DNA from: Candidatus Palauibacter scopulicola
GTDB lineage: Bacteria; Gemmatimonadota; Gemmatimonadetes; Palauibacterales; Palauibacteraceae
NCBI RefSeq assembly: GCF_947581915.1
Contig: NZ_CANPWG010000062.1
Span: 1-64,000 of the forward strand
Direction of reading: 5' to 3'
Length of the DNA: 64,000 nt
In this document: positions 6,737 to 33,320 of the stretch, in pieces
How positions within the stretch are numbered: position 1 is the stretch's first letter
Layout: every line of letters begins with the position of its first letter
Notes under the pieces: generated by a model
Seen by the model: only the letters and a program-made list of their open reading frames with translations
Databases searched by the model: none
Told to the model about the DNA's origin: nothing
Made by a program: the position numbers and the translations under genes

Positions 6737-6745
6737 CGCCTCCCG

Positions 6746-8664: not shown

Positions 8665-8676
8665 GCGAGGACCGCG

Positions 8677-10937: not shown

Positions 10938-10946
10938 GGCGGAACG

Positions 10947-15200: not shown

Positions 15201-15472
15201 AGGTCCGTTTCCGGCCCATCATGCTGACCTCCGTGACCACCTTCCTGGGGGTCTCGCCGATCATCCTGGAGCGCAGCACGCAGGCGCAGTTCCTCTCGCC
15301 CATGGCGGTGAGCCTCGGGTTCGGGATTCTGTTCGCGACCTTCATCATCATGCTCGCCGTGCCGGCTCTGGCGATGATGAACTACACGTTCACGATGCGG
15401 GCGAAGCGGGCCTTCGTTCGCTGGCGGCGAAAGCCCCGACTCGGCTTGGCCGCGGGAGGGGTCGAGCGCTGA
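12260..15472 (+). CDS. RND-family efflux pump, inner-membrane subunit
   Basis: Proton-driven inner-membrane pump of 1070 residues from ATG 12260, chosen because GGAAGGAG precedes it and the ATGA overlap couples it to the adaptor gene; the frame extends 15 codons further upstream. N-terminal membrane helix is [16 protein letters not shown], followed by a large porter domain and 11 further predicted helices. Proton-relay aspartates D398 and D399 lie in [13 protein letters not shown]. In the second half [12 protein letters not shown] has N953 where AcrB has a lysine, as in many hydrophobe-exporting RND subfamilies. Its stop codon overlaps the CTG start of cysD, so the exporter and PAPS-synthesis genes appear to share one transcript. 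A substrate made by the downstream PKS locus is inferred. Confidence 0.9.
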
Positions 15473-16377
15473 GCGATCTCTCGGGCGCCTGGCTGGCGTC
15501 GCTGGAGTCCGAGGCGATCGAAATCCTCCGGGAGGGCCTCGCGGCGGCGTCGCGGCCCGTGATGCTGTATTCGATCGGGAAGGACTCCTCGGTGCTCCTG
15601 CACCTCGCCCGGAAGGCGTTCTGGCCGGCCGCGCCGCCCTTCCCGCTGCTCCACATCGACACGACGTGGAAGTTCCGGGAGATGATCGCGTTCCGGGACC
15701 ACACCGCAGCGGAAGCGGGCGTGGAACTCCGCGTTCACACCAACGAGGACGGGCTGCGCGAAGGCGTCAATCCGTTCGACCACGGATCGGAACGCTACAC
15801 CGACGTCATGAAGACAGTCGCGCTGCGGCAGGCGCTCGACGAGGGCGGGTACGACATCATCTTCGTCGGCGCGCGGCGGGATGAGGAGAGGTCGCGCGCC
15901 AAGGAACGCGTGTTCTCGCTGCGCGACGCGGCCCACCAATGGGATCCGAAGACGCAGCGTCCGGAGCCGTGGAACCTGTACAACACCCGGCTGGGGCCCG
16001 GAGAATCCCTGCGCGTGTCGCCGCTCTCCAACTGGACCGAGGCGGATGTCTGGCGGTACATCCGCGCGGAAGAGATCCCGATCGTACCGCTCTACTACGC
16101 CGCCGAACGTCCCGTCGTCGAGCGGGATGGCGGGTGGATCATGGTCGACGACGACCGACTGCCGCTGCTCCCGGGCGAGGCGCCGCGGCAACGGCGCATC
16201 CGCTTCCGGACGCTGGGTTGCTACCCGCTGACCGCCGCCGTCGAGAGCGACGCGGATACGCTCGACGCGGTCATCGCCGAGACGCTCTGCACGGACCGCT
16301 CGGAACGGGCGGGGCGTCTCATCGACCATGACCGCGACGGCTCGATGGAACGCAAGAAGAAGCAGGGCTACTTCTGA
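15469..16377 (+). CDS. cysD: Sulfate adenylyltransferase subunit 2 (CysD), probable CTG start
   Basis: ATP-pyrophosphatase subunit of ATP sulfurylase, making APS from sulfate and ATP with CysN. The PP-loop is [40 protein letters not shown] and the C-terminal KKKQGYF are diagnostic. The first ATG (15559) falls inside the PP-loop and would remove the N-terminal helix. In-frame CTG at 15469, 7 bases after GGGAGGGG, gives 302 residues and places the conserved Pro-Val-Met at residues 30-32, matching E. coli CysD as I recall it. The intervening codons encode a homologous helix ([14 protein letters not shown]). No ATG, GTG or TTG occurs in frame except GTG 15556, which is equally truncating. CTGA overlaps the RND stop. 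Confidence 0.93.
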
Positions 16378-18233
16378 TGCCGCCGACCCTGCGCTTCGTG
16401 CTCTGCGGCAGCGTCGACGACGGCAAGAGCACCGTCATCGGCCGGCTGCTGTACGACTGTCGCCAGGTTTTCTCGGACGAGCTGACGCGCGTCGAACACG
16501 ACTCGGCCCGCTACGGCACGCAGGGGAAGGCGACCGACTTCGCCCTGCTCGTCGACGGACTGCGGGACGAGCGCGAACAGGGCATCACGATCGACGTCGC
16601 GTACCGCAGCTTCGAGACGCCGCGCCGCAGATTCATCGTGGCCGACGCGCCCGGCCACGAGCAGTACACGCGCAACATGGCCACCGGCGCCTCGACCGCC
16701 GACCTGGCCGTCGTCCTGGTGGACGCGCGCAAGGGAGTTCTGCCGCAGACGGCGCGGCACACCCGGATCGCGGCCATGTTCGGCGTCCGCCACGCGGTTC
16801 TCGCGGTGAACAAGATGGATCTCGTCGAATGGGACCGGGACGTCTTCGAATCGATCCGCGCCTCCTGGCGCGCGATCGCCGACGAGATCGGCCTGGCCGC
16901 GGTCGAGGCGATTCCGGTCTCGGCGCTGACCGGGGCCAACCTCACCCGACACGGCACGTCGGCGCCGTGGTACGACGGCCCGACCCTCCTCGCCCACCTC
17001 GAGACCGTGGATGTCGAGGGGGCCGGCGCCGACGGGCCGTTTCGGATGCCGGTCCAGTATGTGAATCGGCCGCACACCGACTTCCGGGGTTACTGCGGGC
17101 GCGTGGCCGCGGGCGCGGTGGCGGTGGGTGATGCCGTCCGCATCTCGCCCGCCGGGACCGAGAGCCGCGTGGCATCGATCGTGGTGGGGGAAGGGACCCG
17201 CGACCGCGCCGCCCGCGGCGACTCCGTGACGTTGACCCTCGCTCCCGGTGTCGATGTCACCCGGGGCGACGTCGTCGCGGACGCCGACGAACCCGTCGAG
17301 GCGGCGGACCAGTTCCAGGCGCGTCTCGTCTGGATGCACGAAGAGCCGCTCGCCGTGGGCCGCCGGTACGCGATGAAGCTCCACTCGAGGGAAGTGGGCG
17401 CCGCCGTCACCCGGATCCGGCACCGGCTGGATGTGTCCAACGGCAACGAGCTGGCCGCTTCCGTGCTGCGCCTGAACGACCTCGGCACCGTGAACCTCGC
17501 GACCGACCGCCGCGTCCCCTTCGCTCCCTTCGACGAGTCGCGCGCACTGGGCGGCTTCATCCTGATCGACCGCGCCACGAACGCGACGGCCGCCGCCGGC
17601 ACGATCCTCTTCCCGCTCATGCGGGCGGCGAACGTGAAATGGCAGGAGCTGGACGTCTCGAAGGATGTCCGCTCGCGGCTCAAGCTCCAGCGCGCCCAGT
17701 GTGTATGGCTGACCGGGATGTCCGCTTCGGGGAAGTCCACCATCGCCAACCTGCTCGACCGCCGCCTCACCATCGAAGGGCGGCATACGTACCTTCTGGA
17801 CGGCGACAACGTGCGCCACGGCCTGTGCCGGGACCTGGGTTTCACGGAGGCGGATCGGGTGGAGAACATCCGCCGAGTGGCGGAGGTGGCCCGCCTCATG
17901 GTCGATGCGGGGCTGATCGTCATCGTCGCCTTCATCAGCCCGTTCCGGTCGGAACGCAACTACGCCCGAAGCCTGTTCGCGCCCGGCGACTTCATGGAAG
18001 TTTTTGTGGACGCGTCTCTGGAGGCGTGCGCGGAGCGCGACCCGAAGGGACTTTACGCCAAGGCGCTAAGGGGAGAGATCAGGAATTTCACGGGAGTCGA
18101 CAGTCCCTACGAACGGCCCGAACACCCCGACCTGCGCCTGGATACGGAGGAACTCTCCCCGGCGGAGTGCGTGGAGCTGTTGACGGATAAACTCGATCGC
18201 GAGTTCCGGAATTCAGTGACGGAGGATCGCTGA
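16377..18233 (+). CDS. cysNC: Bifunctional sulfate adenylyltransferase subunit 1/adenylylsulfate kinase (CysN-CysC)
   Basis: Fusion of the GTPase subunit of ATP sulfurylase with APS kinase; with CysD it converts sulfate to PAPS. Residues 1-430 are an EF-Tu-like GTPase: GSVDDGKST (11-19), DAPGHE (90-95), NKMD (145-148). Residues 440-618 are APS kinase: P-loop GMSASGKST (447-455), LDGDNVRHGL, and FISPFRSERNYAR. Because the kinase is present and no PAPS reductase or sulfite reductase gene is adjacent, the module points to sulfation and not simply to cysteine synthesis. It overlaps cysD by one base (TGATG) and the permease gene in the same way. Similar fusions (NodQ, mycobacterial CysNC) feed sulfotransferases. 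Confidence 0.95.
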   Translation: MPPTLRFVLCGSVDDGKSTVIGRLLYDCRQVFSDELTRVEHDSARYGTQGKATDFALLVDGLRDEREQGITIDVAYRSFETPRRRFIVADAPGHEQYTRNMATGASTADLAVVLVDARKGVLPQTARHTRIAAMFGVRHAVLAVNKMDLVEWDRDVFESIRASWRAIADEIGLAAVEAIPVSALTGANLTRHGTSAPWYDGPTLLAHLETVDVEGAGADGPFRMPVQYVNRPHTDFRGYCGRVAAGAVAVGDAVRISPAGTESRVASIVVGEGTRDRAARGDSVTLTLAPGVDVTRGDVVADADEPVEAADQFQARLVWMHEEPLAVGRRYAMKLHSREVGAAVTRIRHRLDVSNGNELAASVLRLNDLGTVNLATDRRVPFAPFDESRALGGFILIDRATNATAAAGTILFPLMRAANVKWQELDVSKDVRSRLKLQRAQCVWLTGMSASGKSTIANLLDRRLTIEGRHTYLLDGDNVRHGLCRDLGFTEADRVENIRRVAEVARLMVDAGLIVIVAFISPFRSERNYARSLFAPGDFMEVFVDASLEACAERDPKGLYAKALRGEIRNFTGVDSPYERPEHPDLRLDTEELSPAECVELLTDKLDREFRNSVTEDR

Positions 18234-19987
18234 TGGCGAACGGACCTCTCTTGGACGTCGCGAAGCTGCGGTTCGCGGCCGACGAACGCCCCCCGCGGGC
18301 GATGAGCCTCGTGATCGGCGCGCAGACGGCGATCCTCGTCTGCCTGCCCCTGGTGGTGGTCACGACGATCGTCGCGCGCGTCGCGGACCAGAGCGCCGAC
18401 TACCTCCGCTGGGCGATCTTCGCGAGCATGGTGATCGGCGGCCTGCTCACGATCGTCCAGTCCAGGCGCGTGGCCGGCATCGGCGGGGGAACGCTGACCG
18501 TCATGGGCGCCTCGGGGGCTTCGATCGGAGTCGGCGCGCTCGCGCTCGTGGCGGGCGGCCCGGCGCTGCTGGGGGTGCTGGTGCTCGCCGCGGGGCTGTG
18601 CCAACTGGCGCTGGCGGCCCGCCTGGCGCTGCTCCGGCGCATCATCACGCCGGTCGTGTCGGGCACGCTGACGGCGCTCGTGGCCGTGACGATCATGCCG
18701 CTGGCCTTCGCCATGCTCACGCGGGTGCCGGAAAACGCGCCGCCGGCCGCGGCCCCCACCGTCGCCGCGGTCACCATGCTGTGCGTCGTCGGCCTGCTGC
18801 TCCGGGGCAAACGCTGGGTGCGGGCCTGGAACGCCATCATCGGAATCGCCGCGGGCTGCGTGACCGCCGCCCTGTTCGGGATTCTCGACTTCGGTCGCGT
18901 GGCGGAGGCCCGCTGGATCGGGATCCCCAGCCCCCCGGCCGCCGGCCTGGACCTGAGCTTCGACGCGAGCTTCTGGCTGCTCCTGCCCGGGTTCCTCTTC
19001 GTGTCGTTCGTGATCACGATCCGGCAGGTCAGCGACAACGTCCGCATGCAGCACCTCTCGCGGCGCGAGCCGCGGGCGGTGGACTTCCGCCGGGTCCAGG
19101 GGTCCGTCGCCGCCTGCGGGGCCGGCACGCTCCTGTCCGGGCTCGCGGGCGTGCTGCCGCCGTGGCCGTACGTCGCCGGGATCGCCCTGGCGAGTGGTCT
19201 CGGCGTCGCCGCCCGGAGAATCGGCGTCGTCATCGGGGCCGGCTTCATCGCCCTCGCCTTCGTGCCGAAGCTCACGGCCGTGATCCTGTCGATCCCGGCA
19301 CCGGTACTGGGCGCCTACATTATGGTCGTCTTCGGCCTCATCTTCGTGCAGGGCATGCGGATCCTCTTCCAGGAGGGGATCGACCGGCAGTACTCGCTGA
19401 TCGCGGGGCTGGCGTTCTGGATCGGCGCCGGGATCCAGTTCCAGGCGATCTTCCCAGCCTACCTCGCCACGCCCATGGGCCGCATGCTGGCGAACGGCCT
19501 CACCGTGGGTGGGCTGTCCATCCTGCTGCTGAACCTGTTTCTCGACGTGACCGGGCCCCGCCGCCACAGGATCGAACTGGCGTTGCGCCCGGAGAGCCTC
19601 GCGGAACTCGACAGCTTCCTCGAGGACTTCGCGGCCAGGTACAAGTGGAGCGGCAAGGCCACGGACCGCCTGCGGGCGGCGGCCGAAGAGGCGCTCCTGA
19701 GTCTCCTGCGCGAGGAAGAGGGGGAACAGGCCCCCGCCCGCGCGGAGCGCCGGCTGCGCGTCGTGGCCCGGAACCTCCGCTTCGGCGCCGGGCTGGAGTT
19801 CACCGCGGCCACCAACGAGGGGAACTTGGAGAACCAGCTGGCCCTGCTCGGCGACCGCCCCGACCCGACGAGCGAACGCGACCTGTCGCTGGCGCTCCTG
19901 CGGCACCACGCCTCGTCCGTCAAACATCACCAGTACCACAACGCCGATGTGCTGACCGTGCACGTGAACCGTGCCTGGCACAGTTGA
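18233..19987 (+). CDS. NCS2/UraA-fold permease with C-terminal RsbW-like ATPase-fold domain
   Basis: Polytopic inner-membrane transporter, 584 residues. Residues 25-435 carry about 12-14 hydrophobic segments with solute-carrier-23 (NCS2) features, notably PAPVLGAYIMVVFGLIFVQGM near 355. Residues 440-584 are soluble and resemble a degenerate RsbW/HATPase_c_2 domain: DRLRAAAEEALLSLLREE fits the N-box helix, followed by a strand-rich stretch and LSLALLRHHASS. NCS2 proteins usually end at the membrane part; the related SulP sulfate carriers end in a STAS domain, the natural partner of RsbW-like kinases. Translational coupling to cysNC suggests it imports sulfate or a related anion, but NCS2 members classically carry nucleobases, so the substrate is open. 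Confidence 0.72.
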   Translation: MANGPLLDVAKLRFAADERPPRAMSLVIGAQTAILVCLPLVVVTTIVARVADQSADYLRWAIFASMVIGGLLTIVQSRRVAGIGGGTLTVMGASGASIGVGALALVAGGPALLGVLVLAAGLCQLALAARLALLRRIITPVVSGTLTALVAVTIMPLAFAMLTRVPENAPPAAAPTVAAVTMLCVVGLLLRGKRWVRAWNAIIGIAAGCVTAALFGILDFGRVAEARWIGIPSPPAAGLDLSFDASFWLLLPGFLFVSFVITIRQVSDNVRMQHLSRREPRAVDFRRVQGSVAACGAGTLLSGLAGVLPPWPYVAGIALASGLGVAARRIGVVIGAGFIALAFVPKLTAVILSIPAPVLGAYIMVVFGLIFVQGMRILFQEGIDRQYSLIAGLAFWIGAGIQFQAIFPAYLATPMGRMLANGLTVGGLSILLLNLFLDVTGPRRHRIELALRPESLAELDSFLEDFAARYKWSGKATDRLRAAAEEALLSLLREEEGEQAPARAERRLRVVARNLRFGAGLEFTAATNEGNLENQLALLGDRPDPTSERDLSLALLRHHASSVKHHQYHNADVLTVHVNRAWHS

Positions 19988-20010
19988 CCGCGATGGCTGC
20001 TTCGTACATC

Positions 20011-20029
20011 CTGTGGCGTAAGCCAGCAG
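20011..20029 (+). other. Small RNA-type hairpin with GTAA tetraloop
   Basis: The stretch can fold as a 7 bp stem with one bulged G, closed by the GNRA-type loop GTAA, in the 76 bp gap between the permease gene and the small gene at 20064. There is no T-run, so it is not a normal terminator. It might stabilise or process the transcript between the cys part and the PKS part of the locus. Confidence 0.3.
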
Positions 20030-20063
20030 CAACCCCAACCCCCATTCAGCGAGGATGCAGCGG

Positions 20064-20339
20064 ATGAGCGAGCCACGCCCGGCCCCTGCAATGAGGAACG
20101 CGGTCGATTTCGGCATCGTCGGAGACAACATCCTGGACATCGCCGACTTCGCCATCGAGAAGTACGAGTTCACGAGCGGCACCACTCTGCCCGAGGAAGC
20201 GCGGGAGGCAGCGGTGGAACGCGTGCGCGACGCGTTGTGGGAGATGGTGAAGGCGTTCAGGAATCGGCGGAAGGAAATGCGCAAGCAGCTGTTCGACACC
20301 GCCGACGAGGCGGTGCGGGACTACGTCGCGGACTCCTGA
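20064..20339 (+). CDS. Small helical protein of unknown function in the PKS locus
   Basis: Not recognised. A 91-residue, mostly helical, charged protein: an N-terminal disordered stretch, then GIVGDNILDIADFAIEKYEF and a long amphipathic helix rich in Arg, Lys and Glu (VKAFRNRRKEMRKQLFDTADEAV). No signal peptide, membrane segment or acyl-carrier serine motif is visible. ATG 20064 has GAGG 9 bases upstream; ATG 20055 in the same frame is an alternative with poorer spacing. It lies between the permease and the PKS gene on the same strand, 161 bp before the PKS start. A regulatory or scaffold role in the locus is possible but unsupported. Confidence 0.6.
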   Translation: MSEPRPAPAMRNAVDFGIVGDNILDIADFAIEKYEFTSGTTLPEEAREAAVERVRDALWEMVKAFRNRRKEMRKQLFDTADEAVRDYVADS

Positions 20340-20500
20340 TTCAACGACGAAGTCCGGTTCCGGAGCCGGTGTAGCGGTCCGTAGCAGGCCCAGGCGACCG
20401 GGTCGTTCCCGGCACGTTTCGCACCCGGCAGTCGGCGGATGAAATCCATGCAAACGGCAGGCTTTGACCGGGAGCTGCCCGAAGCGGTCGCGGCAGCAGG

Positions 20501-23500
20501 ATGACCCCTACGTCGCGGGAGTCCCCCGTTGCAATCGTGGGGTACAGCTATCGAATGCCGGGCGGGATCCGGACGGATTCCGACTTCTGGCGGTTGCTGC
20601 GCGAACGCGAGATCGTCCAGGAGCCCGTTGCCGAAAGGTACGGCAGAGGCTATCGGCCGGTTGGCCGTTTCTCCGGTCCGGGGCGATTTGCGAGTCCTCA
20701 CGAAGGTCTCATTCGTGAGGACGGCGAGAAGCTGATCGATCCCAAGCTCTTCGGCCTGTCGCAGGACGAAGTGCTGTCGATGGATCCGCAGGTGCGCATG
20801 TTGCTGAACTGCTCCTGGGAGACCTTCGAGCGTGTCGGCTGGGACTTTCACTCACTGCGCAACAGCTCCACTGGCGTCTTCATCGGGGCGCAGGTCCCGG
20901 CCGTGGCCAGCTGGCGCCCCATGCACGGCGCGGGGCCGTTCGATGTCACGACGATCAGTCTCGCCATGCTGGCCAACCGGGTGTCGTACCACTTCAACTT
21001 GATGGGGCCGTCGATCACGTACTGCACGGCCTGCTCGGCGAGCCTGACCGCCCTCCATTCGGCCATGACCGCGCTGCGTTGCGGCGACTGTGAACAGGCT
21101 GTCGTGGGGTCGGTGAACTACCTCGGGACGTCGCGGCTCAGCGCTTCGTTCAATGCCTTGGGCGTCATCAGCCCCGATGGCAAGTGCCATTCCTTCGATG
21201 CCGACGCAAATGGTTACATCCGTTCGGAGGGAGCGTTCATCTTCGCACTCAAACCCCTGGTGGCGGCCGAGAGGGACGGGGATCACATCCATGCCGTGAT
21301 CGAAGGGACCGCCGTCAACGCAGCCGGTGCGGCCGATGGGAGTTCCGGGCTCGCGCAGGGCCGGTACATCACCGCCCCCACCCGTCACGCGCAGGTAGAC
21401 CTGATGCGCACGGCCTGCGCGCGCGCCGGGCGCACGCCGGCGGAGTTCGACTACATCGAGGCGCACGCGACGGGCACGGTGGTCGGAGATCGCATCGAGG
21501 GCAACGCGATCCTGGAGGCCTTCGGGGCGGCCGACCGCGACGTGCCGCTGCGGGTCTCCAGCGTGAAGAGCAATCTGGGGCACATGGAGGCGGCGGCATT
21601 CCACTGTGCGCTGCTGAAAGTCATTCTGATGATGCAGCGGCGCACCTTCGCGCCGACTTCAAGGAACTTCGTCGTCCCGAATCCCGAGATCGACTTCGAT
21701 AGCGGCCGGATGCAGGTGCAGGCGGAATGCGAACCGTTCCCGGACCGGCCGGTCGTGGTTGGCATCAATTCGTTCGGCTTTGGCGGCGCCAACGGCCATT
21801 GCGTGGTCCGGGAATACCAGCCCCCGCAGCCGCGCGTCTGGTCGTCGCATCCGGCTTCGCGCGGCGGGTTCATGATCCCGCTTTCGGCCCGCACCGCCGG
21901 CGCATTGGCGCAGGGTGCCCGGCGGCTGCGGCAACAACTGGCCGAGAACGGCACCGACCTCTATACGGTGGCGGGCAATCTCAGCCGCCGTCGCACGCAC
22001 TTCGCCGCCCGAACCGCCTTTGCGGTGCGAAATCGGGAGGAATTGCTCGCGTCGCTCGACGAATTCGCCGAAAACCCCTCGAACGTCAGCACGACCGACG
22101 ATGGTGAACGCCGAATTGCGATGGTGTTTGCGGGCCAGGGGACCCAATGGGCGGGTTGCGGCCGTGCACTCTACGACGCCGACCCCGTCTTCCGCAGGGC
22201 GATCGACGCCGTCGAAGACCACTGGCGAACACACTCGGACACTTCGCTGCGCGACGCCTGCTTCAACGCACCCCAGGAGGAGCTCAACGAGGTCCGGCTC
22301 GCCCAGCCCGCGATCTTCATGATCCAGTGCGCCCTCTTCGAACTCTTCAAGACCTGGGGCGTGCATCCGGAATGCGTCGTCGGGCACAGTTCGGGCGAGG
22401 TCGCGGCTGCCTACGCGTCCGGGGCCCTCTCGCTCGCCGAAGCGACGCGGCTCGTCTACCACCGCGCGACGTTGCAGCAGCGCAGGGCCGGTTCGGGCAG
22501 GATGCTGGCGATCGGCCTCGATCTCACTGGCGTGGAGGACGTGCTCGACTCGCTCGACATCGCGTTTCGGCCCGGCGGGGATCGACCGATGCAGGTGGAG
22601 ATTGCCTGCGAGAACGCACCGGCCAGCGTCGTCGCCTGCGGTCCCGAGGCGGAGTTGAGACCGGTCATGGCGGAGCTGGATCGCCGCAACGTGCAGAACC
22701 AGCTGCTTGCGGGGAATATCGCGTTCCATTCCTCAGCCATGGATCCCATCCGGGAGGACGCGCGCGAGGCCCTGGCGTTCCTGGATGACTGCGCGTTCGA
22801 CGCCGGGGTCCCCTTCGTGTCGTCCGTGACCGGCGATCGCACGGAACGCCTGGATGGCGCCTACTGGTGGACGAATATCCGCGAACCCGTGCACTTCGCG
22901 CGCGCGATCGACACGATCGTGCGCGAGTTTCGTCCGGACTTGTTCCTGGAAATCGCCCCCCACAGCGCGCTCCAATCGGCGGTGGTCCAGTGTCTGGAAC
23001 GGATCTCGCCGATGCCGGTCAGCATTCCGAGCCTCCAGCGCGACTCGGACGACCGGCTTGGTTTTCAGCAGGCTCTCGCGTCGCTGTTCAGGTCCGGCGT
23101 CGCTCTCGATTTCGCGGTTCAGTATCCGCGGCCACAGCCGATCGCCCACCTCCTTCCCGGCCATCCCCGCGACGAGCAGGCGCTGATCGATCCCCTGACC
23201 GACAACGAGTTCTTCGTCCGGCAGGGCGAGTACTCTCACGGCCCTTTGGTGGGCCACCGGGTGCCGAGCGACCACCTGCTCTTCGAGGCGCGGCTGTCCG
23301 AGAAGGACTTTCCCTGGCTGACGGACCATCGCGTTCACCACGCCGCAATCATGCCGGCCGCAGGTTACATCGAACTCGTCCTTCAGGCGCTGGGGGGCGT
23401 TCCCGTTCACTTCGAGGTCCTCGAATTCCTGCAGCCGTGCCCGGTGCCCGGGACGCCGGTGCGGCTGCAGACGGCCCTCCATCCGGTTCCCACCGCGCCC

Positions 23501-26500
23501 GACGAGTTCACCTTCACGATCTCGTCCCGGTCGTACGATGTGGACGCCACGAGCGAGATCCATTGCCGTGGCCGGGTGGCCCTGATCGAGGACGAGCACC
23601 CCGCCGGCGTCCCGGCCCGCCTGGAGGAAATCGACCGCTCCTCCTGCGAGACCGTCTTCGCCCGGCGGAGTGACTTCTACGAACGGATCGAGGCGGTTCT
23701 CAGCGAGACCTTCCAGTACGGTCCCTATTTCCAGACCATCCGGCTGTTCGAACTCAACCCTGAATCCAGGGCCCTGATCGTCGACATCGAGATGGACGAA
23801 GAACTCTGGGCGACGGGCCGGGAAGAGGGTTACGTCGGGTGCCCGCCACTGCTCGACGGAGGGCTGCAGATCTTCCTGTCGCACCTCCTGACCGCTTCCC
23901 ACCTCTTCGCCATCCCTCAGCGCGCGGAGCGGGCGACGTTCCTGCGCCCGCCCACCGGTCCGCGGATCACCTGCCACGTGACCAGGCCGAGCGAAGACTG
24001 GATGGATGCGAACGAGCGCGGGCAGTACTCGGTTCAGCGTGGCGAGCGCGCCGCCGGCGCGATCAGCTTCTACGACAGCGACACCGGGCATCTCATCGCC
24101 CACATCGGACAGTACACGTACTTCACCTCGAATCCGCGCTGGAACGACCTGCCGAAGAGCAAGCACGAAATTGCGTGGCAACCGAAGTTCGTCCCCCGAG
24201 GCAAGGCACTGCAGGACTGGCTGCCCGATGGAGAGATCGAGCCGGCCGCCCTGATCGCGGCGCTCGAACGGGCGGACGGGGACGGAGGATACAGTTGTCA
24301 TGCGGTCGAGTTTTCCGGATCCCGCGAACCCGACCGGACCATGCTCGCCGACTGTCTGGACCACTTGACGCGCCCGGACGCCCGATCCGAGTTCTGGCTC
24401 GTGAGCGACAGCGAGGAGACGGCCCGGGTCCACTATGACGCCTTCAACCAGCAGGATGCGGCGCTGCGCTTCCAGGGTCTCGACCCGGCATGCGGGTCCT
24501 CAACAGACGAGGGGCTCCTTCGCCCCGGCAGCGTCGAGATCATGTTCCTGCACGGGTCGGACGACTTCCCCGGCTCGGACGGCTGGCAGTTCCTGCAACG
24601 CCTGAGCGTCGAGGGAGGGTTGGCCTTGGTCCGTCACACAGACGGCGACAGCATCGAGCCCGGAGAGGGGTGGACGATCGTCAGGGCCGGTCGGCGTACC
24701 ACGCTGTTGCAGGCTCCGCACGCCTACGACGCCGAAACCGCGGACCGCCCGCTTCCGGGACCGCGTTGGGTGCTGGGGGAGCCGTCAAGCTGGGCGTCCG
24801 GCTGGACCGCGCTGCTGGACGCCCCCGACACCGTGCGACCCATTCCGCACGAGGCGGTCGTCAGGGGACATTTCGAGACGCTCGAGGCCTGGTCGCAGGC
24901 GGCCGACCTGCGTGCGGTCGACTACTTCTGCGGCACCGACCCCGAGGATCCGACGGGCGAAAGGGCGGCCGCGCACTTCATCGGGTTCGTCCAGGCGCTC
25001 GTGTCCACCCGTCGGGCCGACGCAAATCATGTCTGTCGTCTCAGCGTGGTCACCTGCCGTGCGGCCCTCGACGTGGAACACCCGCGGGGAAGTGCGCTGT
25101 GGGGCGCCGTGCGCAGCATGGCCATGGAGGTCGGCGACGAGGCGAAGCTCGATTTTCGCCTGGTGGACCTTGGCGACGCGGATGATCTCCGGACGCTCGC
25201 CCGGCTGGCGCGGCGCGACCTGCGCGAGCGGGAACTGGCCGTGCGGGAGAACCGGCTGTGGGTGCCGCGCATTTCCAGCATCAGGAAGCGGTACTCCCAG
25301 GTCGCCGCGGGCGACGACGCGGAGTATCGGCTGACGCTGGACAACCCGGGTCAGATCGCCGGCCTCCAGATGAAGACGTACGAACTCCCTCCCCTCGGGC
25401 CGAACGATGTGCACATCGACGTCGAGGCCGCGGCGCTCAACTTCCGCGACGTGATGGTCACGCTGGGGCTGCTGCCCGCCCTCGCATACGAGCGTTCGGC
25501 ACTCGGACGCGAGGTGGGGATGGAGGGGAGCGGCACGGTTCGGCGGATCGGCTCGGAGGTGCGGCACTGTGCGGTCGGCGACCGGGTCGCGTTCATCGCC
25601 GGCGGTTGCATTGCCAACCACGCGGTTGTCCCCGAATACCTCGTCTTCGCCAAGCCGGATCGGCTCAGCACGGAGGAGGCCGCGTCGACGCTGTCGGTCT
25701 ACGTCACGGCGTACTACTCGCTGATTCACCTGGCCCGCCTCCGGGAGGGCCAGCGTGTCCTGATACACTCCGCGATGGGTGGGGTCGGACAGGCCGCGAT
25801 CGCCCTGGCCAGGCACGTTGGCGCCGAGATCTACGCGACGGCCGGCAGCGCGAGCAAACGTGAGCAACTCCTGGCGATGGGAGTGCGAGGCGCCTTCGAT
25901 TCGCACAGCTATGACTGGTACGACGACCTGATGGCGGCGACCGGCGGCGAGGGGGTGGATGTCGTGCTGAACTCCCTGGCCGGGAGGCACATCGAACTGT
26001 GTCTGCGGGCGCTCCGTCCGGGCGGCTGGCACTGCGAAATCGGAAAGATCGACATCTACGCCGACAACGACCTCGGGCTACGGATCTTCCGGAAGAACCT
26101 CCGCTTCGCGGCCATCGACGTGGACCGTCTGATGCTGGACGATCCCGACCTGACGCGCGAGATCTCCGAAACCTGCATGGACCTGCTGGGGCGGGGTGCG
26201 CTGCCGCCGCTCCCCGTCACCGTTTTTCCCTACCGGGACTACGGCAAGGCGTTGCGCCTGATGACGACCGGCGGGCATCAGGGCAAGCTGGTGCTCAAAG
26301 CGCCGCAAGACAGCACGGATCCCGGATTTCCCATCGCGGACATCCGCCCTCTCTTCGACCCCGAAGCGACCTATCTCGTGACGGGCGGCCTGGGCGGTTT
26401 CGGGCTGCGCCTGATCCCCTACCTGGTCGCGTCCGGCGCGCGGCACCTCACGCTGATGGACCGCGACCCCCAGCGTCGCCGAGACGCCGAGTGGGTCCGG

Positions 26501-27520
26501 CGCGCGAGTGCGCTCGTCTACATGGAAGCCGAAGCCGAAATCGACATCGTGCCCGGGGACGTGGCCGTGGAGGCCGACGTTCAACACTGTGTCCGGCAGC
26601 TCAAGCGGCCGCTCAAGGGCGTCTTCCATCTCGCCGGCGCACTGGATGACCGCCTGCTCGACGACATGTCGATGGAGTCGCTGCAGAGAGTGTTTGCGCC
26701 CAAGGCCTCCGGCGCGCTTCATCTTCACGAGGCCACCGCCGGCCTCGAACTCGACCACTTCGTCCTCTTCTCGTCCACCGCCTCGATGCTGGGCAATCCG
26801 GGGCAGATCAACTACAGCGGGGCCAACGGCTTCCTGGACGGCCTGGCCGGGGCGCGCCACCGGCAGGGCCTGCCCTGCCTGACGTACAACATGCCCGCCG
26901 TGGCCGACGCGGGCATGGCCGCGCGTAGTCTTCCGGTACTGCGCATGATGCGCGCCGCGGGGATGCCGCCGGTGAGCTCCGACCTCGCCATCGCCAACCT
27001 CGACTACGCATTACGCACGCTCTCCGACCGACCCCACCTCGTCACCTCGCTCTTCGAGCGTCCCGCGTGGACGGTCGACTTCCCGGACTACATGCGGATC
27101 GGGCGGGTGATGCACAATCACGATGCCTTCGAAGCGGGCTCCGGCGGAGAACTCACACTCGAGAGCGTCGTGGAGCAGATCGCCGCCAAGGTCGCCGAAC
27201 TCTGCGGCCACGAGGACGGCGAGGTGGACGAACCACTGTCGAGTTTCGGGTTGACCTCCATCTCCGTGGCCGAACTCGGGACGTTCATTCAGGCCGAATT
27301 CAACTACCGCGTCAGCGCGCTCGAGCTCATGACCACCGCCTCGTCCCTGTCGCTGGCGGAGGGCATCATTCACGGCAAGGAAGCCGCCGGGGAGGATGAA
27401 GCCGAGACGGACGGGGACGGATCCGGCCGCACCGCCGAGGTCTCCCGGCCACGGGCCCGCCGCACCCCGTCCGCGTTCGCGAACGCCCCGGAGGATCACT
27501 TCCTGGAAGGGGCGACCTGA
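20501..27520 (+). CDS. Mono-modular reducing type I polyketide synthase (KS-AT-DH-pseudoMT/KR-ER-KR-ACP)
   Basis: Iterative-type reducing PKS of 2339 residues. KS 1-430: C178 in CTACSAS, H322 in EAHATGT, H361 in SNLGH. AT 535-880: S630 in GHSSG; AFHS near 741 predicts malonyl-CoA. DH 900-1200: H943 in TDHRVHHAAIMP and D1118 in LLDGGLQ; the usual Gly of HxxxGxxxxP is His. 1225-1600 is a degenerate methyltransferase/pseudo-KR region. ER 1610-1930: HSAMGGVGQAA. KR 1955-2180: GGLGGFG, S2090-2091, Y2104. ACP 2215-2295: S2252 in GLTS, where most ACPs have DS. An acidic, Arg/Pro-rich tail of about 45 residues follows. There is no thioesterase, consistent with reductive release by the reductase encoded at 29307. 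A full beta-carbon reduction set implies a fatty-acid-like chain. Confidence 0.93.
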   Translation: MTPTSRESPVAIVGYSYRMPGGIRTDSDFWRLLREREIVQEPVAERYGRGYRPVGRFSGPGRFASPHEGLIREDGEKLIDPKLFGLSQDEVLSMDPQVRMLLNCSWETFERVGWDFHSLRNSSTGVFIGAQVPAVASWRPMHGAGPFDVTTISLAMLANRVSYHFNLMGPSITYCTACSASLTALHSAMTALRCGDCEQAVVGSVNYLGTSRLSASFNALGVISPDGKCHSFDADANGYIRSEGAFIFALKPLVAAERDGDHIHAVIEGTAVNAAGAADGSSGLAQGRYITAPTRHAQVDLMRTACARAGRTPAEFDYIEAHATGTVVGDRIEGNAILEAFGAADRDVPLRVSSVKSNLGHMEAAAFHCALLKVILMMQRRTFAPTSRNFVVPNPEIDFDSGRMQVQAECEPFPDRPVVVGINSFGFGGANGHCVVREYQPPQPRVWSSHPASRGGFMIPLSARTAGALAQGARRLRQQLAENGTDLYTVAGNLSRRRTHFAARTAFAVRNREELLASLDEFAENPSNVSTTDDGERRIAMVFAGQGTQWAGCGRALYDADPVFRRAIDAVEDHWRTHSDTSLRDACFNAPQEELNEVRLAQPAIFMIQCALFELFKTWGVHPECVVGHSSGEVAAAYASGALSLAEATRLVYHRATLQQRRAGSGRMLAIGLDLTGVEDVLDSLDIAFRPGGDRPMQVEIACENAPASVVACGPEAELRPVMAELDRRNVQNQLLAGNIAFHSSAMDPIREDAREALAFLDDCAFDAGVPFVSSVTGDRTERLDGAYWWTNIREPVHFARAIDTIVREFRPDLFLEIAPHSALQSAVVQCLERISPMPVSIPSLQRDSDDRLGFQQALASLFRSGVALDFAVQYPRPQPIAHLLPGHPRDEQALIDPLTDNEFFVRQGEYSHGPLVGHRVPSDHLLFEARLSEKDFPWLTDHRVHHAAIMPAAGYIELVLQALGGVPVHFEVLEFLQPCPVPGTPVRLQTALHPVPTAPDEFTFTISSRSYDVDATSEIHCRGRVALIEDEHPAGVPARLEEIDRSSCETVFARRSDFYERIEAVLSETFQYGPYFQTIRLFELNPESRALIVDIEMDEELWATGREEGYVGCPPLLDGGLQIFLSHLLTASHLFAIPQRAERATFLRPPTGPRITCHVTRPSEDWMDANERGQYSVQRGERAAGAISFYDSDTGHLIAHIGQYTYFTSNPRWNDLPKSKHEIAWQPKFVPRGKALQDWLPDGEIEPAALIAALERADGDGGYSCHAVEFSGSREPDRTMLADCLDHLTRPDARSEFWLVSDSEETARVHYDAFNQQDAALRFQGLDPACGSSTDEGLLRPGSVEIMFLHGSDDFPGSDGWQFLQRLSVEGGLALVRHTDGDSIEPGEGWTIVRAGRRTTLLQAPHAYDAETADRPLPGPRWVLGEPSSWASGWTALLDAPDTVRPIPHEAVVRGHFETLEAWSQAADLRAVDYFCGTDPEDPTGERAAAHFIGFVQALVSTRRADANHVCRLSVVTCRAALDVEHPRGSALWGAVRSMAMEVGDEAKLDFRLVDLGDADDLRTLARLARRDLRERELAVRENRLWVPRISSIRKRYSQVAAGDDAEYRLTLDNPGQIAGLQMKTYELPPLGPNDVHIDVEAAALNFRDVMVTLGLLPALAYERSALGREVGMEGSGTVRRIGSEVRHCAVGDRVAFIAGGCIANHAVVPEYLVFAKPDRLSTEEAASTLSVYVTAYYSLIHLARLREGQRVLIHSAMGGVGQAAIALARHVGAEIYATAGSASKREQLLAMGVRGAFDSHSYDWYDDLMAATGGEGVDVVLNSLAGRHIELCLRALRPGGWHCEIGKIDIYADNDLGLRIFRKNLRFAAIDVDRLMLDDPDLTREISETCMDLLGRGALPPLPVTVFPYRDYGKALRLMTTGGHQGKLVLKAPQDSTDPGFPIADIRPLFDPEATYLVTGGLGGFGLRLIPYLVASGARHLTLMDRDPQRRRDAEWVRRASALVYMEAEAEIDIVPGDVAVEADVQHCVRQLKRPLKGVFHLAGALDDRLLDDMSMESLQRVFAPKASGALHLHEATAGLELDHFVLFSSTASMLGNPGQINYSGANGFLDGLAGARHRQGLPCLTYNMPAVADAGMAARSLPVLRMMRAAGMPPVSSDLAIANLDYALRTLSDRPHLVTSLFERPAWTVDFPDYMRIGRVMHNHDAFEAGSGGELTLESVVEQIAAKVAELCGHEDGEVDEPLSSFGLTSISVAELGTFIQAEFNYRVSALELMTTASSLSLAEGIIHGKEAAGEDEAETDGDGSGRTAEVSRPRARRTPSAFANAPEDHFLEGAT

Positions 27521-27523
27521 GCC

Positions 27524-29314
27524 ATGCCGAACGCGCTCCTCCTCTACCCCAGGCACCCTCCCACCTACTGGGGCAACAACTTCGCCCTGGACCTTCTGGG
27601 CATCCGGGCCGCCTTTCCACCGCTCGGCCTGCTCACCGTGGCAGCGATGTTCCCGTCCCGGTACAACCTCCGCGTGGTCGACCTCAACGTCACCTCGCTC
27701 GAGGACCGCGATCTGGAGTGGGCGGATCTCGCCTTCACGTCGACCATGATCGTCCAGCGCCCATCGCTCGAGCAGGTCGTGGAGCGCTGCAACCGGGCCG
27801 GGATTCCGGTCATCGCCGGCGGACCTCACCCCACGACCTTCCACCGCGAAATGGAGGGCATCGACCACTTCGTCCTCGACGAGGTCGAGGAGACCTTCCC
27901 CGCCTTCCTGCACGACCTGGAAAACGGCACCGCGAAGGAGGTCTATCGAGCGCCGCGAAAGCCGGATGTGACCGTCACGCCGCTTCCGCGCTTCGACCTC
28001 ATCGACATGAACGACTACTACTCCATGTGCCTCCAGTTCTCGCGGGGCTGCCCCTTCGACTGCGAGTTCTGCGACATTACCAAGCTGTACGGCCGCGTGT
28101 CGCGCACGAAGACGCCCGAGCAGATGGTGGCCGAGTTCGATCACCTGCACGAACTGGGCTGGCGCGGCCCGCTCTTCCTCGTCGATGACAACTTCATCGG
28201 CAACAAGCGCGAGGTGACGCGTCTCCTGCCGGCGATCGCCGAGTGGCAGAAGGAGCGCGGGTATCCGTTTACGCTGTCTACCGAGGCCAGCGTGAACCTG
28301 GTCCGCATGAACGACCTCATGGACGTCATGATCGAGGCCGGCTTCGACACCGTCTTCCTGGGTATCGAGACGCCCAATCCAAAGGCTCTCAAGAAGATGA
28401 AGAAGCCTCAGAACATCAACGTGCGCGACGACAACTACCTGTTCACCGCCGTGCGCAAGATCCAGCAGAAGGGGATGCAGGTGCAGGGCGGCTTCATCCT
28501 CGGCCTCGATGAGGATGACGAGAGCGCGTTCGATGCCCAGATCGACTTCATTCAGGAAACCGGAATCCCGATCGCGCTGGTCGGCCTGCTGACCGCACTC
28601 AAGGACACCAACCTTTGGGCGCGTCTCGAGCAGGAAGGCCGACTGCTGGACAAGCCCATCGAGATCAACGCGACCTCGCTGAACTTCAGGCCGCAGATGG
28701 ATCCCGCGACATTGGTGGAGGGGTATCTGCGGGTCATCGGGACGATCTACGATTCGACGCTCGAGAACTATTTTGAACGCTGTCTGACTTTGCTGAAACA
28801 CCTCAACCCCGTGCCGCACATCCACAAGCCGGTGAGCGAGCACGCGCTCTATGCGGGGATCATGGGGATCCGGCGGCGCCTGACCGCGGACCAGCTTCCG
28901 GCGTTCTCACGGTACGTCGCGAAGGTCTCCAAAGACCATCCCCGCATGATGCCCCTGGCGATTCGACTCGCCGCGACGGGTCATCACTGCGAGAAGTTCA
29001 CCCGTCAGCAGACCGTCATCCGCGAATTCAAGGAGTACCTGAACTCGGAACTGGCGACCGTCCGCGATACGCGACCGCGGTCGAAGCCGAGACGGGGCGC
29101 GGAGACTGGGCTCAGAAAGGCGGCGCTCAGCCGGGCCAATGCCCGGCGGAGGGCCATCCCGGAGGAATTCCGCTACGCCGGAGACGGGATCTCCGAAGCC
29201 GTCGCGGCCTTTCAACTCGCGCTGAATCCCGAGATCCACCCAACCCCGGCGACCCGTGGGAGCTTGCCGGTTGTGGGCGAGACCCGGGATCCCGGTGGAG
29301 CGGGCCGTGCCTGA
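27524..29314 (+). CDS. B12-binding radical SAM enzyme, HpnP-like (DUF4070 type)
   Basis: Radical SAM protein of 596 residues. Residues 1-140 form a cobalamin-binding Rossmann domain (FPPLGLLTVAAMFP, GGPHPTTF). The SAM cluster is bound by C176, C180 and C183 in SRGCPFDCEFC. The following segments FLVDDNFIGNKREV, AGFDTVFLGIETP and VQGGFILGLD are strikingly like the hopanoid C-2 methylase HpnP and relatives, which methylate unactivated sp3 carbon. It starts 3 bp after the PKS stop and overlaps the reductase-sulfotransferase gene, so it almost certainly acts in that pathway, probably adding a methyl branch to the chain. The last 110 residues are Arg-rich and atypical. Methylation is inferred from family, not proven. 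Confidence 0.85.
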   Translation: MPNALLLYPRHPPTYWGNNFALDLLGIRAAFPPLGLLTVAAMFPSRYNLRVVDLNVTSLEDRDLEWADLAFTSTMIVQRPSLEQVVERCNRAGIPVIAGGPHPTTFHREMEGIDHFVLDEVEETFPAFLHDLENGTAKEVYRAPRKPDVTVTPLPRFDLIDMNDYYSMCLQFSRGCPFDCEFCDITKLYGRVSRTKTPEQMVAEFDHLHELGWRGPLFLVDDNFIGNKREVTRLLPAIAEWQKERGYPFTLSTEASVNLVRMNDLMDVMIEAGFDTVFLGIETPNPKALKKMKKPQNINVRDDNYLFTAVRKIQQKGMQVQGGFILGLDEDDESAFDAQIDFIQETGIPIALVGLLTALKDTNLWARLEQEGRLLDKPIEINATSLNFRPQMDPATLVEGYLRVIGTIYDSTLENYFERCLTLLKHLNPVPHIHKPVSEHALYAGIMGIRRRLTADQLPAFSRYVAKVSKDHPRMMPLAIRLAATGHHCEKFTRQQTVIREFKEYLNSELATVRDTRPRSKPRRGAETGLRKAALSRANARRRAIPEEFRYAGDGISEAVAAFQLALNPEIHPTPATRGSLPVVGETRDPGGAGRA

Positions 29315-31817
29315 AACGAACACTCTGCGCAGCGAAGTCCCCCCGCTCACGGGCACCCTGCCGCCTCAGTGCCGGCACGATCTCGATGCGCTGCGCCGGT
29401 TCATCGACGAGGCGTCCGGTCGCGCCGGGGCGGCCCCCCCCGCCGATCCCGCGGACTTCCGGGAGGTGCTGCTGACCGGAGCGACCGGCTTCCTCGGCCG
29501 CTTTCTTCTGAGAGATCTCCTGCGGCGGAACCCGAACCTGACGGTGACCTGCATCGTACGCGCGGATGATTCCGACCATGCGCTGGCGCGTATCCAGGCC
29601 TCCCTGAAAGAGGCGGAAGTCCAGGATGACGAACTCGCGCCGCGCATCCGTGCGCTGGCGGGAGACATCCATCTTCCGCGTTTCGGCCTCGAGCCGCCCC
29701 AATTCGCGGAACTCTGCCAGCGGATCGACGCCGTCTACCATCTTGCCGCGAGCCTGAGCGTAGCGACGCCCTACGTCGCCCTGCGCAGGACCAACGTGTT
29801 CAGCATCCGCGCCGTGCTCGACCTGTGCCTGACCACGCGCCTGAAACACATCTTCTTCGCGTCGACCATGGGGGTTTTCCCCGAGTACTTCTGCGGTTTC
29901 GCGAAGGAGTATTCCGGCAGCCGCATCACGCACCAGATGCAGCCGGACACCGGGAGCATGAAACGCGTCTTCCCCCTCGGCATGCTCGGGTATCCGTGGA
30001 CCAAGGTGGTGGTCGAGCAGGCCCTGCTTCATGCGACACGGGCCGGGGTGCCCGTGGCTCTGTTCCGACTGCCGCACGCGAACGTCGCGAGTACCGGATT
30101 CGGCAATGCCGACGATGTCGCGGTGCGAACAGTGGCCGCGGTAGTGGATGCGGGGCGGATGCCCGAAGGGTTCACGTTGCAATGGAGCCAGGCGGCGGCC
30201 GATGTCGTTGCCGACACCATGGCGGCCATCTCGCTGAATCCGGATCGGCGCTTCACGATCTACCACTACTCCGAAGACCCGCCGCTGGGGCACGAGATGC
30301 AGCTCGCGGACTTCGGACTGTACTACAAGACCGTCACCTACGATGAGTTCAAGCGGGCCTGTCTGTCCCGGGGAGAACGGTCGCCTCTCCACGGCTTCTG
30401 GAACCTGATCGATCACGGTGCGCCCTACTGGTTCAGCGGGGACGCGACTGCTCCGTCCCATCGCGTCTGCAGCCGCGCGCTGGAAGCCGATTGTCCGGAC
30501 CCGATTCCGTGGCCGAGCGCGTACGCCATGCTCCGGCGCTCTCTCGACTGGTTGCGGGCCCATCGCGAGCGTTGGCCCTACCGCATACCCGAGAGCCGCC
30601 TCGACTACGACCACCTTCTGGGTCGAGCCGAATCGTTCGCGCGCGAATACGATGTTCCGTTCGACGTGGCGTTCCCCGCCTGGAAACTTGAGGGGCTCAG
30701 GCAGCTCGTCCGGGCGGTGAACGCCCCGGAGGCCGGCGTCCGCACCGAGAGACACGACTACATCGCCTTCGATCTCACCCGCCGGTTGCGCAACAACGCG
30801 TCTCTGGAAGCCGAGCGCCGCCGCTACCCGCAGATCGCGGAACAGGAGGTCAGGCGGCCGGTCTTCATCGTCGGGGTCAACCGGACCGGCACGACGTTCC
30901 TGCACCGCCTGATGTCTCGCGACCCGCGGTTCTGGACGCTGCGCGGCTACGAGTATGTCGAGCCGGTCCCGGCGGGAGGCAACGACGCCAGTCCGGCCGG
31001 CTCGGCCGAAGATCCGCGGCGAGCCTTCGCGGAAGAACTTCTGAACGCGTCGGGAATCGTCGACATGTTCAAGGGGGTGCATCACTTCGACGTGAACGAA
31101 CCGGAGGAGGATCTCGGACTCCTCAGGTTGGGGTTTACGGCCTGGGGCGCCACCGTCTGGTTCGACATCCCAGACTTCGCCCGCTGGCTTGCCGGCAAGG
31201 ACATGTCGGCGAGTTACGCCTTTCACCGCCGCGCGATGCAGAGCTACACGCATCAGCGGCGGCAGCGGCGACGCGGCGGGGAGGGGCAGTGGGTTCTGAA
31301 GGCGCCCTTCCACCTCTTCGAACTGGAGGCGCTGATCGCGACGTACCCCGATGCCCTGTTCATTCAGACCCATCGCGAACCCGCGCAGTTCATGGGATCC
31401 TGGTGCAGCCTCGTCGACCGCGTTCGCAGTCTCTCCTGCCAGCCCCGCCCGTCAGGAGATCTCGGGGCGGAACAGCTCGAGTTCATGAGCCGCATGCTCG
31501 ATTGCGCGGTGGAGTTTCGCACCGCCCACCCCGAACTCGAAGACCGGTGGATGGACGTCAGCTTCTACGATTTTGTAGAAGACCCGATGGCCATGGTGGC
31601 CCGCATCTACGACCATTTCGGCTGGCGGCTGGAGGAGGAGGCGGTGGCCGACATGGATGCATGGCTCGAGGTACAGGCCGAACAGCGGCAAAGAGAAGAG
31701 CGGCACAAGTACGACCTTGCCGACTTCGGTCTGACGCGCGACGAGGTCGATGCGGCGTTCTCGCGCTACCTGGGTTTTCTCTCCCGCGAAGGACACCGAT
31801 CGCCCTTGACCCCGTGA
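29307..31817 (+). CDS. Thioester reductase-sulfotransferase fusion
   Basis: Two-domain protein, 836 residues from GTG 29307 (GGTGGAG 6 bases upstream; in-frame GTG codons at 29295 and 29256 are alternatives). Residues 50-400 form an extended SDR of the thioester-reductase type that terminates PKS/NRPS chains: GATGFLG (58-64), S186 in ASTMG, and Y229/K233 in YPWTK. Residues 515-800 form a PAPS-dependent sulfotransferase: 5'-phosphosulfate loop GVNRTGTTFLHR (from 523), PEEDLGLL near 600, WVLKAPFHL, and a 3'-phosphate site with R690 and S698. The likely sequence is NAD(P)H reduction of the ACP-bound chain to aldehyde/alcohol, then O-sulfation with PAPS from cysDNC. I know of no described enzyme with this pairing. 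Confidence 0.85.
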   Translation: MPETNTLRSEVPPLTGTLPPQCRHDLDALRRFIDEASGRAGAAPPADPADFREVLLTGATGFLGRFLLRDLLRRNPNLTVTCIVRADDSDHALARIQASLKEAEVQDDELAPRIRALAGDIHLPRFGLEPPQFAELCQRIDAVYHLAASLSVATPYVALRRTNVFSIRAVLDLCLTTRLKHIFFASTMGVFPEYFCGFAKEYSGSRITHQMQPDTGSMKRVFPLGMLGYPWTKVVVEQALLHATRAGVPVALFRLPHANVASTGFGNADDVAVRTVAAVVDAGRMPEGFTLQWSQAAADVVADTMAAISLNPDRRFTIYHYSEDPPLGHEMQLADFGLYYKTVTYDEFKRACLSRGERSPLHGFWNLIDHGAPYWFSGDATAPSHRVCSRALEADCPDPIPWPSAYAMLRRSLDWLRAHRERWPYRIPESRLDYDHLLGRAESFAREYDVPFDVAFPAWKLEGLRQLVRAVNAPEAGVRTERHDYIAFDLTRRLRNNASLEAERRRYPQIAEQEVRRPVFIVGVNRTGTTFLHRLMSRDPRFWTLRGYEYVEPVPAGGNDASPAGSAEDPRRAFAEELLNASGIVDMFKGVHHFDVNEPEEDLGLLRLGFTAWGATVWFDIPDFARWLAGKDMSASYAFHRRAMQSYTHQRRQRRRGGEGQWVLKAPFHLFELEALIATYPDALFIQTHREPAQFMGSWCSLVDRVRSLSCQPRPSGDLGAEQLEFMSRMLDCAVEFRTAHPELEDRWMDVSFYDFVEDPMAMVARIYDHFGWRLEEEAVADMDAWLEVQAEQRQREERHKYDLADFGLTRDEVDAAFSRYLGFLSREGHRSPLTP

Positions 31818-31844
31818 GGGCCTGGCCTGTTTGATTGTGGCGGG

Positions 31845-33212
31845 TCAGTCGCCGACCCACACCGTCTTCACGTTCACGAACTCGCGGATCGCGTGGGGGC
31901 CGAGTTCCCGCCCGTAGCCCGAGCGTTTGACGCCGCCGAAGGGGACGCGAGGATCCGAAGCGGACATCCCGTTGATGAAGACGCCGCCGGCCTCCAGGTC
32001 GCGGACGGCGCGGGCCCGTTCCTCGGGATCGTTCGTCCAGATGGCGGAGCAGAGGCCGAACTCGGTCGCGTTGGCGCGCCCGATGGCCTCGTCCATGTCG
32101 GCGACCGGGAAGACGCTGGCCACCGGACCGAAGATCTCGTCGTCCGTGGCCGGGGATCCGTCCGGGACGTCGGTGAGCACGGTCGGCTCGTAGAACCATC
32201 CGCGGCGGTCGGGGACGCGGCCGCCCGCGGCCACGCGGGCGCCGGCCGCCACCGTGGCCTCCACCTGCTCCGCGACGTGATCTCTCAGGTCGCGGCGGGC
32301 CAGCGGTCCGATTTCGACCTCGGACTCCCTCGGGTCGCCGACGCGGAGCGCCGACACGCGTTCGACGAGCCGCTCGGTGAACTCGTCGGCGATCGAACGC
32401 TGGACGAGCATCCGCTTGGCGGCGATGCACGACTGGCCGTTGTTCCACATGCGCGCGTCGACGGCGGTCGCGACGGCCCGCTCGAGATCCGCGCTCTCCA
32501 TGACGATGAAGGGATCGCTGCCGCCGAGTTCGAGCACGGTCGTCTTGATGCGGCGTCCGGCCTCGGCCGCGAGGGCGGAGCCGGCCGCGACGGAGCCGGT
32601 GAGGGAGGCGGCCTGCACCGTCGGGTCGTCGAGCACGCGGGGGATGTCCCCGACCTCGACGAAGACGTTCTGGAACACGCCCTCGGGGAATCCGGCGCGC
32701 GAGAACAGTCCCTCGAGCGCGACCGCGCACTGCGGCACGTTGGGCGAGTGCTTGAGCAGGAAGGCGTTGCCCGCCAGCACCGTCGGCACCGCGGAGCGCA
32801 TGGCCTGCCAGAACGGGAAGTTCCACGGCATGATCCCGAGCACCGCGCCCAGGGGATGGTACTCGACCCAGCAGTGCGTTCCGGTCGACTCGAAGCGCTC
32901 GGGCGCCAGGTGCGCGGGCCCGTGCTCGGCGTAGTACCGGCACACCCAGGCGCATTTTTCGGCCTCCGCGACCGCGCTGGCGAGCGGCTTGCCCATCTCG
33001 CGCGTCATCAGCAGGCCGTAGGCCGCCTTGCCCCGCTCGACGAGTTCCGCCAGCGCGAGGAGACGTTCCGCCCTCTCGGCCACCGGCACCCGCCGCCACA
33101 CGTCGAACCCCGCGCGGGCCCGTTCCAGCGCCCCGCCGATCCCGTCCGCATCGAGGGCGGGGAACGACGCGAGCCGTTCTTCCGTGGTCGGGTCTATGCT
33201 CTCGAAAGGCAT
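31845..33212 (-). CDS. NAD(P)-dependent aldehyde dehydrogenase, succinate-semialdehyde dehydrogenase-like
   Basis: Cytoplasmic aldehyde dehydrogenase. Visible features are PWNFPFWQ, GSVAAGSALA in the Rossmann fold, the catalytic-glutamate segment LELGGSDPF, the nucleophile region NNGQSCIAAKR, and EIFGPVASVF. The 455-residue length and pattern fit the short GabD/SSADH group. I chose the ATG at 33212 over the GTG at 33227, since GAGAGAGAACGAG just upstream serves as the ribosome-binding site and the protein then starts MPFESIDPTTEE, as relatives do. It converges with the PKS locus (27 bp gap) and diverges from the hydratase gene. It could detoxify aldehydes from the reductase, but relatives act on succinate semialdehyde and similar compounds. 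Confidence 0.88.
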   Translation of the reverse strand: MPFESIDPTTEERLASFPALDADGIGGALERARAGFDVWRRVPVAERAERLLALAELVERGKAAYGLLMTREMGKPLASAVAEAEKCAWVCRYYAEHGPAHLAPERFESTGTHCWVEYHPLGAVLGIMPWNFPFWQAMRSAVPTVLAGNAFLLKHSPNVPQCAVALEGLFSRAGFPEGVFQNVFVEVGDIPRVLDDPTVQAASLTGSVAAGSALAAEAGRRIKTTVLELGGSDPFIVMESADLERAVATAVDARMWNNGQSCIAAKRMLVQRSIADEFTERLVERVSALRVGDPRESEVEIGPLARRDLRDHVAEQVEATVAAGARVAAGGRVPDRRGWFYEPTVLTDVPDGSPATDDEIFGPVASVFPVADMDEAIGRANATEFGLCSAIWTNDPEERARAVRDLEAGGVFINGMSASDPRVPFGGVKRSGYGRELGPHAIREFVNVKTVWVGD

Positions 33213-33320
33213 CTCGTTCTCTCTCACGAGACGTTACCATTGCACCGCCCAAACTAGCGAAATCGTCCGGTTTCGGCGCGCGACCCGCAAGCCCCGGCTG
33301 GACCAGCCCCGGAGCCGTAC

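Follow-up and report, generated by a model that had tools for sequence, protein, structure and literature searches.

The swf gene cluster was described from sponge bacteria by Della Sala et al. in 2013 (PMC3908369). It comprises SwfA, a polyketide synthase (PKS) of 2349-2361 aa with the domain order KS-AT-DH-ER-KR-ACP, SwfB, a fusion of a reductase (R) and a sulfotransferase (ST) of 832-839 aa, and SwfC, a B12 radical SAM protein that is absent from PSA11D7 and hence not obligatory (PMC3908369). Conversion of a carboxylate to a primary sulfate was already proposed for SwfB, redox-inactive R domains were raised as a possibility, the one published attempt at expression, with an entire cluster in E. 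coli, yielded no new metabolite, and no alkyl sulfate was known to be widespread in sponges (PMC3908369). Which bacteria the clusters come from was considered unresolved in 2014 (PMC4245539); Tectomicrobia were subsequently shown to contain a divergent version (PMC10227082). An R domain followed by an ST domain also stands at the C-terminus of the coccidian (apicomplexan) type I FAS (per PMC3908369), there within one giant synthase and not, as in SwfB, in a stand-alone protein; the R domain of Cryptosporidium CpFAS1 reduces very-long-chain acyl-CoA, and no sulfotransferase is mentioned for it (PMC2995488). In CurM and the olefin synthases a PAPS sulfotransferase is likewise linked to a PKS, but a thioesterase (TE) is used and a beta-hydroxyl is sulfated. 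The literature search returned no paper on chlorosulfolipid or alkyl-sulfate gene clusters, and a link between swf and Gemmatimonadota was absent from the only paper found naming both swfA and Gemmatimonad*.

The window (the whole stretch of 64,000 nucleotides that was analysed) carries a swf cluster in a Candidatus Palauibacter-like member of the Gemmatimonadota, a host that is new here. Annotation was limited to hand-picked ORFs; a search for recurrent neighbours gave mostly shadow ORFs in the GC-rich DNA. The features are as follows.

15409-31840, + strand: 16.4-kb block cysD-cysNC-permease-small ORF-swfA-swfC-swfB, missing as a unit from swf-less congeners.
15559-16377, + strand: cysD, ATP sulfurylase small subunit (NCBIfam TIGR02039).
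16377-18233, + strand: cysNC, ATP sulfurylase large subunit fused to APS kinase, makes PAPS (Pfam, NCBIfam).
18233-19987, + strand: NCS2-type permease, weakly similar to HATPase_c_2 in its C-terminal part (Pfam, NCBIfam).
20055-20339, + strand: small orphan protein of 94 aa, conserved in 27 distinct swf loci, mostly directly upstream of swfA.
20501-27520, + strand: swfA, KS-AT-DH-ER-KR-ACP, 2339 aa, no thioesterase (Pfam, published SwfA motifs).
27524-29314, + strand: swfC, B12-binding radical SAM plus DUF4070, RGCPFDCEFC motif (Pfam, NCBIfam, motif).
29307-31817, + strand: swfB, fusion of a thioester reductase (aa 56-302) and a sulfotransferase (aa 518-776) (translation, Pfam, NCBIfam, model).

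The swfB gene is an open frame of 836 aa without internal stop and with a GTG start, where close relatives have ATG. Nearly whole Pfam profiles were covered by NAD_binding_4 (E 6e-48, 163.7 bits) and Sulfotransfer_3 (E 5e-35, 122.1 bits), and the match to the NCBIfam thioester reductase TIGR01746 (E 1e-56) scored 192.8 bits, under the curated cut-off of 213. Relatives at 49-98% identity over nearly the full length were found in about 30 genomes, a degree of conservation that lies far beyond chance. Invariant in 28 full-length rows were G58, T60, G61, F62 and G64 of the glycine motif together with T187, Y229 and K233 in the reductase, and R526-TGTT530, H592, E600-E601-D602, K665, R690 and S698 in the sulfotransferase; most of these residues are shared by stand-alone R and ST proteins. 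The single chain of a reductase followed by a sulfotransferase that an earlier note had claimed is thus real, with both Pfam domains and invariant catalytic motifs, and every motif named there is present. The further statement that no characterised enzyme has such a layout holds for biochemically characterised cases in the literature searched but not for the layout, which was published in 2013: the window fusion is SwfB of the swf cluster, so neither the layout nor the basic idea is new. As to the fusion being a characterised family with another activity, the family is published but uncharacterised, and the reaction proposed for it is likewise reduction and sulfation. SwfB is a real, conserved and complete enzyme, and a published yet uncharacterised family gains a member.

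The likeness to the published cluster, judged from published descriptions, extends to the length of SwfB, the domain order and motifs of SwfA and the radical SAM partner. SwfA of the window has the published KS motifs DPQ(I/V)R, in the form DPQVR, and HATGT and the AT motifs GHSSGE and IAFH (PMC3908369). Its QCALFEL differs by one internal change from QCALVEL, which most relatives have exactly and which varies in the published SwfA proteins at the first and last residue only (PMC3908369). SwfC carries a CX3CX2C motif and is likely a C-methyltransferase. The swfB gene lies within an operon: swfA stops at 27520, swfC starts at 27524, and the end of swfC overlaps the swfB start at 29307. In the two families where the genes were found, every complete locus has swfA together with swfB. 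The order is A-C-B in loci of the window type, C-A-B in other members of the genus and A-B-C in most loci of the second family (f6), as in PS11G3; swfC is also at complete loci, is truncated in L099 and in genome G123 lies beside only the second copy. A thioesterase-less PKS adjoins swfB in every complete locus, as the earlier note had suggested checking, and Pfam detected no thioesterase domain among the block proteins scanned, SwfA and SwfB included. In PS11G3 a permease and an ORF of about 92 aa lie upstream as well, but the gene order is A-B-C. The window departs from the published clusters in its Gemmatimonadota host, in the PAPS genes within the block and, in its lineage, in QCALFEL instead of QCALVEL.

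An AlphaFold model of SwfB built from 44 aligned rows, which included stand-alone R and ST domains, had a pLDDT of 86.3 and a pTM of 0.84; from 12 close relatives alone the pLDDT was 47. In Foldseek the best matches were 2zq5, which is Stf1 (E 1.1e-20), and 4w4t, the R domain of MxaA (E 5e-20); at the level of the fold, the model gives no sign of a collapsed domain. The sequence comparison pointed to the same two proteins: among solved structures, Stf1 (2zq5) was nearest to the C-terminal half and the R domain of MxaA (4u7w) to the N-terminal half, with the family profile matching Stf1 at E 1.6e-54 and the MxaA R domain (4u7w/4w4t) at E 4e-49. Mycobacterial Stf1 is, however, a single-domain protein, and the MxaA domain is the terminal R domain of the myxalamid PKS-NRPS, without a fused sulfotransferase. 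Next after MxaA among solved R domains comes that of an S. coelicolor PKS (8v1x), which may yield the aldehyde only, so that release by SwfB may be by two or by four electrons.

The search for swfB across genomes covered Gemmatimonadota, and a strong match was obtained in 37 of the 395 sampled genomes, 11 in the genus of the window and 26 in the second family. Within the window's own family, full SwfB was confined to its genus (12 of 17 genomes, one of them with the gene split across contigs). A 98% identical swfB is in the Candidatus Palauibacter denitrificans MAG SB0661_bin_40, and Palauibacterales MAGs include sponge-derived ones (PMC10469786). The SwfB tree intermixes the two families, and its well-supported branches need at least three family changes, with L005 labelled f6 by assumption; SwfB of L006 (assigned to f6) is 83% identical to that of the window, against 51-54% for most of the swf carriers in the genus of the window. 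Exchange of swf cassettes has taken place between the families. In five loci (L034, L036, L037, L040, L042) the same chromosomal site holds a different cassette (C-A-B, with SwfB at 53-54% identity), while identity to the window is about 90% or more for cysDNC, the permease and most genes downstream, which amounts to cassette replacement. Several observations were made alongside. L007 is a short contig binned as Rhodothermaceae from sample series SB0661, which is common to two Palauibacter-like bins, and it may be misbinned. At its edge, contig C19 of G123 (L102, L103) bears a second, partial swfB plus swfC, not far from a complete swfA-swfB, possibly as tandem swf clusters. In the one-contig genome G088, which has no full swfB, a short segment (C1:433626-433859) matches the C-terminus of SwfB at 59% identity, possibly a decayed swf. 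An SDR epimerase-like gene of 353-373 aa is divergent from swfA in L095 (17050-18120), L097 (3548-4666), L098 (16442-17545) and L107 (15734-16792); by description, ORF8 of PSA11D7 is similar (PMC3908369).

The whole block (15409-31840) is missing from five swf-less congeners. The absence is clean in G024, where window 6738-15408 corresponds to L124 3068-11805 and window 31841-33297 to L124 11807-13269, with one base between; some 300-600 bases lie between the flanks in G029, G033 and G034, and the left flank is less well preserved in G028. The empty sites have the downstream aldehyde dehydrogenase as well; it is thus outside the unit and was dropped as a candidate pathway member. At the other end of the block the true cysD start is probably somewhat upstream of 15559, since the TIGR02039 match begins at profile position 24. 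The C-terminal 130 or so residues of the permease match HATPase_c_2 weakly (E 0.01), and in PS11G3 STAS (anti-anti-sigma) ORFs adjoin the permease (PMC3908369), a hint of a transporter with partner-switch regulation. The orphan protein (about 90 aa; motif VGxNILDIADFAIEKYEF) had no confident match in Pfam or NCBIfam. It fits, by position and size, ORF19 of P. simplex PS11G3, which was left out of the swf genes in 2013 (PMC3908369).

Each of the 12 swfB-carrying genus members, but none of the five lacking it, had a cysNC of at least 89% identity (Fisher p 1.6e-4, not corrected for relatedness). Of 20 swf genomes tested in the second family, 18 had a long cysNC match (69-77%), usually distant from swf; the other two (G214, G123) had an APS-kinase-sized match only, and five genomes without intact swfB had no cysNC above 47%. 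G028 (C31:112626-119341) and G025 (C90:23258-28269) have further cysNC copies, each with a different sulfotransferase gene no more than a few kb away, so that PAPS synthesis and sulfotransfer are paired there too. Sulfite reductase (NIR_SIR, PF01077) was detected in 0 of 17 genus members, against 11 of 14 control genomes. The PAPS of the block is therefore probably not for sulfur assimilation and is most simply explained in the genus as a sulfate donor. It need not serve SwfB alone, because the genus genomes, swf-less ones included, have other sulfotransferases, among which the donor may be shared. The PAPS genes in the block support, without proving it, the idea that sulfated fatty alcohols are the product of the cluster.

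We consider it probable, though well short of firm, that the swf operon reduces an acyl thioester and sulfates the product to an alkyl sulfate, with methylation by SwfC and PAPS supplied by CysD-CysNC of the same block. In the order of steps that we infer, SwfA would iteratively build a largely saturated acyl chain, of a length that is likewise presumed, on its ACP, and, SwfA being without a thioesterase, the chain would be released by the SwfB reductase domain. There NAD(P)H would turn the acyl thioester into an aldehyde and this, most likely, into the primary alcohol, a four-electron reduction in all. The sulfotransferase domain would transfer sulfate from PAPS to the new hydroxyl, with an alkyl sulfate as the putative product, and SwfC would add a methyl group onto an unactivated carbon. 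The route from acyl-SwfA-ACP through the alcohol to the sulfate is suggested because the residues are invariant, the fold is confident and the MxaA system is four-electron; myxalamid synthase, the home of MxaA, is listed as an alcohol-forming release system of this kind (PMC2835699). The reduce-then-sulfate logic of the earlier note is accordingly the best mechanism for a TE-less PKS with PAPS genes in the block, but it had already been proposed in 2013.

The two domains could instead have independent activities, with the R domain freeing a fatty aldehyde by two-electron reduction and the ST acting on a different hydroxyl, such as one that SwfA had left at mid-chain or at the beta position, or that of an alcohol from a separate reductase. 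Two-electron members of the R-domain superfamily (PMC2835699), the SDR epimerase-like genes that adjoin swfA in several second-family loci and an alcohol dehydrogenase near swfA of PS11G3 (PMC3908369) are in keeping with this; but no separate reductase is conserved in all loci and none is in the window block, and we regard this reading as unlikely. The logic of CurM and the olefin synthases, by which sulfation of a beta-hydroxyacyl chain would lead to decarboxylative release while the R domain acts elsewhere, is already disfavoured and very improbable: the pairing of a PKS with a PAPS sulfotransferase is broadly the same (PMC3903477), but SwfA has a full KR-DH-ER, no thioesterase is in SwfA or the block whereas a reductase is present, the solved ST relatives by sequence are Stf1 and Stf9, and no CurM or OLS ST entry was among the best 60 of 113 matches (E<=10). 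A redox-inactive R domain with heterocycle or condensation chemistry, and sulfation of another metabolite, is a possibility named by Della Sala et al. (PMC3908369) that is hardly to be expected, given that neither the motif for NAD(P) binding nor the T-Y-K residues vary across the 28 rows.

Sulfation of an alcohol released by SwfB itself thus remains the preferred reading, and what is added here is its context: the host lineage, the PAPS linkage, the empty site, the small accessory gene and the cassette exchange. The presence of swf on chromosomal contigs of two Gemmatimonadota families makes these real hosts, in which the swf site can also be empty and, in the genus of the window, adjoins PAPS-making genes. 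More tentatively, the block may be a self-contained alkyl-sulfate operon in which swf cassettes are exchangeable. It would combine a PAPS supply of its own, a PKS for the fatty-acyl chain, a B12 radical-SAM methylase, one enzyme that both reduces and sulfates at release, a small accessory protein and a permease, and its product would be a methyl-branched alkyl sulfate, widespread in sponge symbionts but overlooked in standard lipid analysis. The testable prediction is that swf-positive symbionts yield alkyl sulfates.
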